DNA of 64,000 nt from Blastopirellula sediminis. Lineage in GTDB: Bacteria; Planctomycetota; Planctomycetia; Pirellulales; Pirellulaceae. Below the pieces are notes generated by a model. That model had not been told where the DNA came from, made no database searches, and worked only from the letters and a program-made list of their open reading frames with translations. Below, one piece after another: positions 26,550-42,299 of the stretch; within the stretch, counting starts at the first letter, position 1; each line of letters begins with the position of its first letter. The DNA lies in the NCBI RefSeq assembly GCF_020966755.1, contig NZ_JAJKFT010000010.1:1178001-1242000 (forward strand), written 5' to 3'. A program made the translations under genes and the position numbers.

Positions 26550-27151
26550 GACCTCTCCACAGACGATGACGAATGACGCGCGCTTCGACGGCCTCGGGCG
26601 TCGCCCGATGAGTTCACGTCGTCGCTTGATTGGGTAGTCTGTCGAGGTTGACTGTGAGTGCACAATTGGTGCTTGCCGCGAAACAAGGAATTTCACGAAG
26701 TCTTCCACCGTTGTTAATATCACGCGGAATCGACGACGAAATTTGTCAAGCAAAAAAGGTGACCCCCGCTCAACTGTAAAAGGTGCGAATCCAACTCTCC
26801 TTTTCGCGCACAAAACCGCCGCGTTTGGGGTGATCAGCGATCAACGGCGCCGCTAGAGCGTCGTCGGGGAAGATTGCCGCCGCACGCCAGGTCGTCTGCG
26901 GGAGTGGGAAAACCGTCGAAATCGATCAAGTGAATTTGATGGCCGGCGGTAACATCCACTTTGTGGAGCGTCGTTCAAACAAAGAACAGATGAATTTCGA
27001 TTTCTTTCGGCTGCCGGCAAAACTTGAAAAAAGAGGGGCAAAGCGCCCAGTTTGAAGCGGCAGGTCCGCTATCGAGAAACGTCGCTGGCGGCCAAAATGA
27101 ACGATCGCCCCGGTTCTTTAAATGACTTACTTGCGCTTCAGGAGAGAGTCG
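26550..27151. other. 600-bp intergenic region between divergent genes
   Basis: It separates the DUF1559 gene (minus) from ald (plus). It is more AT-rich than its surroundings. I see no tRNA, conserved RNA or convincing ORF. A small hairpin TCCACTTTGTGGA lies near 26956, and AGGAGAG before GTG 27152 is the ald ribosome-binding site. Both promoters are presumably here but no pair of hexamers stood out. Confidence 0.4.
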
Positions 27152-37349: not shown

Positions 37350-37424
37350 GGTGGGTAGAGGGACTCGAACCCACGACCCCTGGAATCACAATCCAGTGCT
37401 CTAACCAACTGAGCTATACCCACC
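37350..37424 (-). tRNA. tRNA-His (anticodon GTG)
   Basis: The minus-strand sequence folds into a complete cloverleaf: acceptor GTGGGTA/TACCCAC, D-arm with AGCTCAGTTGGTTAGAGC, anticodon stem CTGGA/TCCAG around loop TTGTGAT (anticodon GTG), and T-arm GTGGGTTCGAGTCCC. An extra encoded G-1 at 37424 pairs with discriminator C73 at 37350, the histidine identity feature. No CCA is encoded. CTTTTTC follows and may terminate transcription. Confidence 0.97.
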
Positions 37425-39630: not shown

Positions 39631-40359
39631 TTAGAAAATCTTCGGAATAAACATCCGCACGCGACGACGGTACTCTTCGTAGTCGGAACCGTGAACGGCG
39701 ACCAGGTCTCGTTCTTCCATCGGGATTGCCGCCAGGATGTAGACGGTCGTACCGATCGCGAAGAGCAAGTGACCCACCGACATCGTCGGCGTCATCCAAA
39801 AGACCAGGAACCAGCCGACGTACAGCGGATGGCGAATGTACCGATATAACACCGGCATCTGGAACTTCAGCGGAGTATATTCGACGCCGCGGAAGTAGAG
39901 CCACGACTGACGCATGCCGAACAGGTCGAAGTGATTGATCAAGCAGGAGGAGAAGAAGATCAACCCCCAACCGCAACCGTACAACGTGTAGAGGATCACT
40001 TGCGCCGGCAGCGAAGTCGCATGCCAGACTACCTGCGGCATCGGTTGCCAGACCAGGAACAGGGCGATCATCAAAATGTTGGTCGTCATCACGTATAAGC
40101 TACGTTCGGCCGCTTTCGGGATGTACTGCGTCAGCCAACGTTTGAACGCGGGACGGGCCATGCCGGAATGCTGAATGCCGAAGGCGACGATCAGCAGCAA
40201 GTTCACCGCGATCGCGCTGGCGGTTCCCAGTTGGACGGGCGCGTCGATCGTGCGGGGGACCCACAAGTTGCCGATAAAACCGATGGAGTAGAGGAATACT
40301 CCTAAAAAAGTGACGTAGGCGAGCGCGCCAAACAACAGGACTGCAATTCGTTTTGCCAT
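39631..40359 (-). CDS. mddA: Methanethiol S-methyltransferase-like (NnrU/isoprenylcysteine methyltransferase superfamily)
   Basis: 242 residues, five or so transmembrane helices. Family segments are FGIQHSGMARPAFKRWL, ERSLYVMTTNILMI, FLVWQPMPQVVW, LINHFDLFGMRQSW, YRYIRHPLYVGWFLVFW and ERDLVAVHGSDYEEYRRRV. The RHPxY and E-R-D elements form the SAM site of the ICMT-like fold, and the pattern as a whole matches MddA. MddA methylates methanethiol to dimethyl sulfide. It is 98 bp downstream of an OsmC gene, opposite a TetR regulator, suggesting a thiol-stress module. The precise substrate is inferred from sequence pattern. Confidence 0.85.
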   Translation of the reverse strand: MAKRIAVLLFGALAYVTFLGVFLYSIGFIGNLWVPRTIDAPVQLGTASAIAVNLLLIVAFGIQHSGMARPAFKRWLTQYIPKAAERSLYVMTTNILMIALFLVWQPMPQVVWHATSLPAQVILYTLYGCGWGLIFFSSCLINHFDLFGMRQSWLYFRGVEYTPLKFQMPVLYRYIRHPLYVGWFLVFWMTPTMSVGHLLFAIGTTVYILAAIPMEERDLVAVHGSDYEEYRRRVRMFIPKIF

Positions 40360-40457: not shown

Positions 40458-41045
40458 CTATTCGACGACCAATTCGCTTTGGACGGCGATCGCATGGGTG
40501 ATATTGAAAAAATTCGGACTCGTACGGAGGACGGCGGCGTGCAGTTCGGCCAGTTGCTCGGGGGTCGCGTCAGCGCTGATTCGCACCGTCTGGCGAAGCG
40601 AGTCGTAACCGTTCGAAACCTTGTCGGCCAATTCAAACATCCCGCGGAGATCGATCTCGCCGCTTGTTTCGATTTCGAGCGAGTCGATCCGAATCCCCAT
40701 CAGCGCCGCGGTCATCGCATAGCCGACCAGCATGCAGGCGTTCAAGCCTGAGAGGAGCAGCTCTTGCGGATTGGCGTGCAGATTCGTGCCGCCGAGCTCA
40801 AGCGGTTCGTCCGTTTTCCAGGCGAAAGATCGTGCGACTGACGTGCCGCCGATTTCGTAACCGTCGACCTGATGCTCGGCGACTGCGCCTCCTTGCCAAC
40901 GGCTGGAGACCTTCCAGCTAGTCCCGCCGAGCGAACGATCTTGGGCGACGCCGTTGATCGCGGCGCGAATCGCGGTGACGTCGAGTCCATTTACATGCGA
41001 ATCTCTGGAGGTCGTTGATGTGGTGGCGTTCATATTGGTTTGCAT
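40458..41045 (-). CDS. OsmC family peroxiredoxin-like protein
   Basis: 195 residues (ATG 41045; ATG 41033 is an alternative). It has the OsmC/Ohr fold with the redox cysteine in ELLLSGLNACMLVGYAM. The second, C-terminal cysteine of classical Ohr/OsmC is replaced here: SPNFFNITHAIAVQSELVV has no Cys. OsmC proteins reduce organic hydroperoxides with a Cys pair, so a single-Cys member may act differently. It lies upstream of mddA and divergent from the TetR gene across three palindromes, which suggests control by that regulator. Confidence 0.88.
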   Translation of the reverse strand: MQTNMNATTSTTSRDSHVNGLDVTAIRAAINGVAQDRSLGGTSWKVSSRWQGGAVAEHQVDGYEIGGTSVARSFAWKTDEPLELGGTNLHANPQELLLSGLNACMLVGYAMTAALMGIRIDSLEIETSGEIDLRGMFELADKVSNGYDSLRQTVRISADATPEQLAELHAAVLRTSPNFFNITHAIAVQSELVVE

Positions 41046-41123: not shown

Positions 41124-41166
41124 GCGCACTCTCGGTGCGCACTGCGAGTGCGCACTTGAAGTGCGC
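41124..41166. promoter_or_regulatory. Three phased palindromes, candidate TetR operator array
   Basis: Three perfect palindromes of form GCGCAC-N5-GTGCGC start at 41124, 41137 and 41150, each 17 bp, with an exact 13-bp period so that neighbours share four bases. They fill the gap between the OsmC and TetR starts, 25-67 bp upstream of the TetR ATG. Autoregulation of the TetR gene and control of osmC-mddA is the likely reading; a dispersed repeat is the alternative. Confidence 0.6.
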
Positions 41167-41190: not shown

Positions 41191-41820
41191 ATGACGCAAA
41201 CGCCATCGTATAAACCAGTTGCCGAATTGCTCGGAGCGCCGCCAGCGCCGCGCGGAGCCAAAGATCGCCTGATTTCGACGGCGATTGATCTTTTTTATCG
41301 CAATGGTTTTAACGCGATCGGCGTGGATCGAATCCTAAATGACTCGGGCGTCGGGAAGACGACCTTCTACAAATACTTTGAAGGGAAGGATGATTTGATC
41401 GTCGCGGCGGTCGAGCGTTTCGACCAATGGGCGACCGCGGCTTGGAGCACCGCCGTCCGGCGTCATGCCGGCGACGATCCCCGCGCGAAGATCATCGGTT
41501 ACTTCGAAGTGCTCGATCAGTGGTTTCATGCGCCGGACTTTCAGGGCTGTCTCTTTTTGAACGTCGCTGCCGAGTATCCCAATCCCCGCGATCCGATTCA
41601 TATTGCTGGCGCCGCTCATAAGCTGCGGTGTCGCGAAACGTTTCGCGATCTCGCCGAGGATGCTGGCGCCGAAAAGCCCGAGGAATTGGCCGATCAATTG
41701 GCGATCCTGCTGGAAGGGGCGATCGTCTTGCGGCAGGTCTGCGGCTGCGACGCCGCCGCCAAAACCGCGGCCGAGACGGTTGCGATGCTGCTGGAAATCA
41801 ATCTGCCCGCCGCGACATAA
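41191..41820 (+). CDS. TetR/AcrR family transcriptional regulator
   Basis: 209 residues from ATG 41191. The N-terminal helix-turn-helix is typical: DRLISTAIDLFYRNGFNAIG, VDRILNDSGVGKTTFYKYFE, GKDDLIVAAVE (residues ~24-72). The C-terminal ligand domain contains FQGCLFLNVAAEYP and a C-x-C in RQVCGCDAAAK, resembling the YdeS/NemR-type group with cysteines that could sense electrophiles or oxidants. It is divergent from osmC-mddA, with three overlapping palindromes in between. Confidence 0.9.
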   Translation: MTQTPSYKPVAELLGAPPAPRGAKDRLISTAIDLFYRNGFNAIGVDRILNDSGVGKTTFYKYFEGKDDLIVAAVERFDQWATAAWSTAVRRHAGDDPRAKIIGYFEVLDQWFHAPDFQGCLFLNVAAEYPNPRDPIHIAGAAHKLRCRETFRDLAEDAGAEKPEELADQLAILLEGAIVLRQVCGCDAAAKTAAETVAMLLEINLPAAT

Positions 41821-41957: not shown

Positions 41958-42299
41958 ATGTCGCGTTACGAAGGGAAACCGTTCGTACGACTGATCGAAT
42001 GTTACATCTTGTCGGCGATTGACGAATTGCCGGCGGTCTACGAGCAGAAGCTGGTCGAAATGGTCCCCGCCTTGAAGGAGACCTACAACATCGAAGGCAC
42101 ATGGCGCGAAGTCGTGGCGGAAGTAATGCAGTTTCCTGATTCGATTGACGAAGAGCTGCGCGGCATGTGGAATCACAACCAGGCGATCGCCGCTCAAAAG
42201 AATCAGATCCTCTCGGCCGAGGCGTTCGCCCAAGCGGTCGTCGACCAAAACTTTCCGTCCGAGCCGGAAGGGGAAGAAGACGAGGGCGAAGAAGAATAG
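41958..42299 (+). CDS. Hypothetical protein with acidic tail
   Basis: 113 residues, soluble and helical. The N-terminus MSRYEGKPFVRLIECYILSA and WREVVAEVMQFPDSIDEELRGMW give a compact helical fold. The C-terminal ~15 residues are nearly all Glu/Asp (EPEGEEDEGEEE). No domain recognised. It lies 33 bp upstream of the protease gene on the same strand and could be co-transcribed. Confidence 0.7.
   Translation: MSRYEGKPFVRLIECYILSAIDELPAVYEQKLVEMVPALKETYNIEGTWREVVAEVMQFPDSIDEELRGMWNHNQAIAAQKNQILSAEAFAQAVVDQNFPSEPEGEEDEGEEE

Follow-up and report, generated by a model that had tools for sequence, protein, structure and literature searches.

A tandem array of three overlapping palindromes in the 64,000-nucleotide stretch of Blastopirellula sediminis DNA analysed here (the window) is probably the operator of the adjacent TetR-family regulator, binding of which would repress both osmC and tetR until a thiol-reactive compound modified Cys120 and released the protein. 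The array, at 41124-41166, is real, and the operator reading is built on its sequence, its synteny and a site conserved in relatives of the regulator. The features concerned are, from left to right:

39631..40359, minus strand: mddA, methanethiol S-methyltransferase gene, beginning 98 bp past the osmC stop
40458..41045, minus strand: osmC-like gene, 195 aa, one Cys, divergent from tetR
41124..41140, unstranded: palindromic site 1, GCGCACTCTCGGTGCGC, GCGCAC-TCTCG-GTGCGC
41137..41153, unstranded: palindromic site 2, GCGCACTGCGAGTGCGC, GCGCAC-TGCGA-GTGCGC, with 4 bases in common with each neighbour
41150..41166, unstranded: palindromic site 3, GCGCACTTGAAGTGCGC, GCGCAC-TTGAA-GTGCGC
41191..41820, plus strand: tetR, 209 aa, TetR_N and TetR_C_13 domains, with ATG 41191 picked from the ortholog alignment
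41548..41550, plus strand: Cys120 codon of tetR, aligned to E. coli NemR Cys106, candidate thiol sensor

The sequence confirms the three perfect 17-bp GCGCAC-N5-GTGCGC palindromes with a 13-bp period that the sequence-only reading had described, together with the 4-base overlap between neighbours. Lone 6-N5-6 palindromes are nothing special in the window, where 30 perfect examples of any sequence occur vs 24.7 +/- 5.2 in 30 first-order Markov simulations of it; the array pattern with up to two mismatches is likewise not enriched (11 found vs 10.45 expected in the window). The array is the window's only cluster of three palindromes within 40 bp, a configuration that the simulations never produced, and neighbouring pairs at exactly 13 bp were also absent from all 30. 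The possibility that the array is a dispersed repeat, raised along with the original description, was checked against the 7,051,236-base genome and is ruled out there, since the exact pattern occurs at three places, all within 41124-41166 (vs two places for the control, the pattern read backward). TetR-family operators are typically palindromes of about 15 to 20 bp near the regulator's own start, and the 17-bp palindromes of the array end 24 bp before the tetR ATG. In DNA composition the osmC-tetR segment is unremarkable, and no sigma-70-like promoter was found.

All six half-site arms are identical across the array and the inner ACT...RGT frame is present in all three sites, whereas of the 15 pairwise positions in the spacers (TCTCG, TGCGA and TTGAA) only 4 agree, the common first T accounting for three of them. 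Invariant arms around spacers that are nearly random to one another suggest that the arms are under constraint and do not simply reflect a fresh duplication. A neutral or selfish 13-bp-unit tandem repeat that landed here by chance is accordingly quite improbable, given also that, among 396 genomes of the order, just 2 have the two-unit pattern, with one array each, and that the place of the array in the window is that of the orthologs' operator described below. Such repeats can nevertheless arise without this regulator, as indicated by a longer array of GCGCAC-N5-GTGCGC units, with the same 13-bp period, inside a 362-aa ORF of another genome (L065, G028:C215:81516-81571) that has no TetR relative at E 1e-20. 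The array could also act at the RNA level, as a tetR leader hairpin through which translation or transcript stability is adjusted, and its folding energy as RNA (-35.6 kcal/mol) is indeed lower than that of dinucleotide shuffles (-25.8 +/- 3.0 kcal/mol, z -3.25), 1 in 200 of which folds as well. Good folding is, however, expected of any tandem palindrome, and the imperfect sites of relatives, at other spacings, conserve their half-sites before several kinds of gene and once without an adjoining tetR, leaving the hairpin explanation with very little credibility.

The gene names given in the sequence-only reading hold. MddA clears the NCBIfam equivalog NF045656 (304.6 vs a cut-off of 270 bits), OsmC matches PF02566 (49.9 bits), and the regulator carries both TetR-family repressor domains (PF00440, 43.9 bits, cut-off 24; PF16925, 29.1 bits, cut-off 27). 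The NCBIfam comparison of the TetR, in which the 16 models listed include none for NemR, placed it below the equivalog cut-offs for DicD (53.1 vs 240 bits) and AcuR (40.2 vs 247 bits). OsmC/Ohr peroxidases have two catalytic Cys. The translated OsmC has a single Cys, as had been proposed, which sits in the motif LNACM, and the position that we take to be that of the second Cys is Ser-Pro in the window and in 13 of 13 aligned neighbours. Two sister genomes (G002 and G003) have mddA and, to its right, the same gene that lies at 41958 in the window, with osmC-tetR absent between them. Because these genomes keep mddA without the pair, mddA probably has a long history in the genus, and the osmC-array-tetR segment would have been either gained in the window's lineage or lost in the sister genomes. 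The third sister genome (G001) has no DNA match to mddA or osmC-tetR at the corresponding place, and none of the three has a TetR match at E 1e-20. Repeat-like DNA matches of the window across genomes are explained by a tRNA gene at 37350-37423 (minus strand, 69.3 bits).

A search at E 1e-30 detected relatives of the TetR in 28 of 396 genomes from the order and 27 of 384 from the phylum, with the own genome in both counts; the genome contigs added one weak relative locus only (L011), which was not useful. Of the resulting loci, L005-L038 number 34, and in 24 of these a divergent mddA (22) or osmC (2) lies within 700 bp of tetR. A de novo search of these 24 intergenic gaps, from which the window was excluded since the earlier pattern had been devised after seeing it, recovered one strong 17-bp motif, GGTTGACTtGtGGTACACC, in all 24, with an objective of 557 (200 starts) vs 63 for shuffled regions (60 starts). 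This relatives' operator has 6-N5-6 build and the core GTnnACTnnnRGTnnAC, and lies upstream of tetR where the latter is divergent from osmC or mddA. When the motif was applied as a profile to the roughly 350 bp upstream of tetR, at a threshold of 10 bits, 45 of 59 tetR loci had a match vs 1 of 59 for the downstream control; L014 counts as a miss because the tetR tested lacks an upstream site, although a second tetR of that locus has one. Loci outside the training set matched in 11 of 11 osmC-linked cases (three of them, L117-L119, barely above the threshold), the single mddA-linked case (1/1) and 10 of 23 others. The operator is commonly double: 32 distinct pairs occur in the fetched loci, with centres 22 (14 pairs), 23 (17) or 24 bp (1) apart, a count that covers spacings of 20-25 bp in loci taken around tetR or mddA, some of them overlapping, and is not a genome-wide test of specificity. 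Comparison thus supports the operator reading of the window array, in that orthologous tetR-osmC pairs have a conserved 6-N5-6 operator at the same place.

The genes associated with this operator extend beyond osmC and mddA. An operator-bearing TetR is divergent from an AhpD-domain protein (PF02627, TIGR00778) in L108, from a homocysteine S-methyltransferase in L111 and from class I methyltransferases with an Rv2258c-like winged helix in L110, L112, L116 and L120; in L018, L123 and L125 the operator is present beside neighbour genes that have no evident link. Some genomes (for example G120, G092, G700 and G763) encode more than one such TetR, one by osmC or free and one by mddA. Six relatives that form a separate clade (L007-L010, L036 and L122) lack the motif. 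The upstream DNA was read for five of these loci (L007-L010 and L122) and shows a different palindrome just before tetR, CAGAC..GTCTG, around ACAGACAGGTCTGT; their neighbour genes are other ones too. Some 22-bp pairs (in L026, L029, L030, L032, L034 and L035) include a readable middle site in 11-bp phase, and the tetR-mddA gaps of L030, L032 and L034 contain four half-sites in strict 11-bp phase, which can be read as three overlapping sites and represent a further form of stacked operator.

Phylogenetic reconstruction places the window TetR within the clade of this operator family, as first branch of a clade of 15 (support 87/97) and sister to the remaining 14 (98/89). Ten of these 14 are divergent from osmC, two from mddA and one from an AhpD-like gene, and 13 have the operator upstream, the exception being the first tetR of L014. 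The array has the 6-N5-6 arms, the inner ACT...RGT and the location between tetR and osmC/mddA that are typical of the family, and is probably a lineage-specific operator variant in which GCGCAC replaces the half-site GTnnAC and three sites 13 bp apart replace two sites 22-24 bp apart. The second half-site position is T in 39, G in 6, A in 5 and C in none of 50 ortholog half-sites, and C in the array; the ortholog half-sites that are one base from GCGCAC are GTGCAC (4/50) and GAGCAC (2/50). No 13-bp pairs occur among the listed sites of relatives, and no sequence forms between the GTnnAC and GCGCAC types were found. On the relatives' profile, sites 1, 2 and 3 rank 12, 161 and 23 on the plus strand of the window, with site 3 fourth on the minus strand. 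A profile of orthologs only ranks them 157, 274 and 13 of 63,982 positions, making site 3 the nearest of the three to the relatives' operator. Scored as an evenly spaced triple (periods 10-25), the array is the best in the window, narrowly (-4.3 vs -5.9). A loosened operator pattern, GYKNACTNNNRGTNMRC, is not enriched in the own genome, where it has 14 matches read forward against 27 for its backward control. Elsewhere in the window, a strong match to the relatives' operator lies at 26646-26664 (GTTGACTGTGAGTGCAC, 16.6 bits; 13.7 on the ortholog-only profile), and an ORF that we take to be prepilin-like probably starts about 95 bp downstream of it; we estimate that a match of this strength is near chance expectation for 64 kb.

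The low scores of the array on the relatives' profiles and the long terminal branch of the window TetR (0.62 vs a median of 0.29) could mean that this protein has drifted and binds elsewhere, and that the array serves a different regulator, or the TetR together with a second protein. We regard this as unlikely, since the top profile matches listed include no better site in the osmC-tetR gap and the array sits at the place of the orthologs' operator with the ACT...RGT frame kept. Instead, the array appears to belong to the same regulator line as a divergent form of its operator, an identification made mainly from place, build and frame. As to the protein side of such a change, the recognition-helix substitution H62Y is weakened as the cause of the GCGCAC half-site, because L125 and L111 also have KYF and yet have GTTGAC- or GTTTAC-like sites. 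Gly55 of the window TetR is still a candidate; the 34 relatives counted, which do not include L011, have S, A or T at that position.

Under the operator reading, a TetR dimer would bind the 17-bp palindromes in the gap from which tetR and osmC diverge and switch both genes off. The sequence-only reading had envisaged cooperative dimers stacked along all three sites, but full occupancy is unlikely given the 4-bp overlap of adjacent sites. Since neighbours have the GCGC of their arms in common, sites 1 and 3 at most, or site 2 alone, would be filled at one time. Neighbours 13 bp apart would lie about 86 degrees apart round the helix with their inner half-sites offset by 2 bp, so that recognition helices would compete for the groove; at the 22-bp spacing of relatives, dimers would be on about the same face of the DNA. 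Modification of Cys120 by an oxidant, an electrophile or a reactive sulfur species would take the repressor off the DNA, inducing osmC and tetR and possibly mddA through read-through from osmC.

Control of mddA by the array in the window is uncertain, because two of the three sister genomes have mddA without osmC-tetR. The 500 bp upstream of the window mddA contain no relatives-type operator (best score -12.4 bits), and mddA would consequently need read-through from osmC. An mddA-based search of the phylum gave matches in 166 of 392 genomes, 42 of them above the cut-off, and of the 30 mddA loci scanned, the window's included, two have an operator of at least 15 bits upstream and none downstream. 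One of the two (L098) has an adjoining tetR. In the other (L088, genome G596), mddA is preceded by a pair of sites (20.4 and 21.3 bits) at 23-bp spacing, and the 3.7-kb locus contains no TetR relative; a tetR-osmC pair with sites of its own (7.8 and 16.9 bits) is located on another contig of the same genome (L106). This genome looks like a case of a trans regulon, in which mddA bears the double operator and the tetR-osmC pair is elsewhere.

Cys120 of the window TetR occupies the position of the redox Cys of NemR/AltR-type regulators (NemR Cys106) and is kept in 35 of 35 relatives in L005-L038, the loci that the Cys counts cover (L101-L125 were left out). Cys147, Cys184 and Cys186 are found in 0 of the 35, and the C-x-C segment formed by Cys184 and Cys186, to which the sequence-only reading had pointed, is rejected as sensor on this count. 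A thiol/peroxide stress module, akin to the thiol/electrophile-responsive module proposed there, is suggested by the genes linked to the operator in relatives (osmC, mddA, AhpD-like and homocysteine S-methyltransferase). The conserved Cys itself says little about the signal, because its equivalent is also present in L007-L010, relatives with other palindromes. Nevertheless, by analogy, a thiol-reactive signal is likely for the window TetR because of the conservation at the Cys120/NemR Cys106 position and the parallels with AltR and DitR. A lesser but serious possibility is that the array is the operator as proposed and that the TetR pocket senses a small ligand (such as methanethiol, sulfide or an acrylate-like compound) independently of Cys120. 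The linked MddA, homocysteine S-methyltransferase and class I methyltransferases would fit a small ligand, as would the response to acrylate of AcuR (PMC3017554), a distant family member (40.2 bits vs a cut-off of 247); the presence of Cys120 in all 35 relatives argues against it.

The conserved double operator of osmC- and mddA-linked TetRs is a wider and more useful finding than the window array itself. MddA converts methanethiol to dimethylsulfide, and among the matches listed in our literature search none describes a regulator of mddA by title or abstract. The paper on the MddA and MddM methyltransferases (PMC12904073), the former being the enzyme linked to the window locus, names no regulator in the text available, and 'TetR' occurs 0 times in its main text. 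Searches on TetR-OsmC operators, TetR operators of the phylum and overlapping TetR palindromes likewise listed no match whose title or abstract describes this regulon. For the MddA step the conserved operator predicts both a regulator and its binding site, with G596 as a test case in trans, and it links mddA to OsmC/AhpD-type defence. As a natural experiment, the window variant bears on the joint change of specificity and spacing that a repressor and its operator may undergo. More tentatively, and with less than even probability, there may be a phylum-wide sulfur/thiol detoxification regulon in which NemR/AltR-like TetRs switch osmC, mddA and S-methyltransferases via the double operator, and in which the window's regulator and operator were jointly rewired into a GC-rich overlapping triple with two alternative bound states, the outer pair or the middle site, in place of a single one.

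Several characterized TetR-family repressors resemble the window system in part. E. coli NemR, a redox and electrophile sensor whose Cys106 a review ties to sensing of reactive chlorine (PMC7464077), represses its own promoter (PMC13178969) and has its Cys106 aligned with Cys120, but its targets are nemA/gloA and its sequence is only distantly similar (34.8 bits against PDB chain 4yze). AcuR is likewise a TetR-family protein with an inverted-repeat operator and is linked to the metabolism of an organosulfur compound (DMSP), but its operator is TAATAGAC-N6-GTCTATTA and its inducer is acrylate (PMC3017554). The diamide-responsive TetR-type repressor DitR of Stenotrophomonas probably has three sites at one promoter, one of them CATAC-N5-GTATG, which recalls the array, although the protected boxes described do not overlap, the operon controlled encodes a transporter and two Cys are implicated (PMC9342713). 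AltR, from the allicin tolerance cluster of Pantoea ananatis, is a NemR relative released by thiosulfinates through one Cys; its box is CAATCTAC-N6-GTAGATTG, with a second, unproven repeat TTACCAAC-N6-GTTGGTAA, and neither a tandem 13-bp array nor mddA is described in the available part of that report (PMC13178969). A Pseudomonas allicin cluster related to that of AltR includes osmC, tetR and ahpD (PMC7119367), and AltR itself resembles the window TetR in being a TetR repressor with a single key Cys and an inverted repeat as operator at the promoter of its own gene (PMC13178969).
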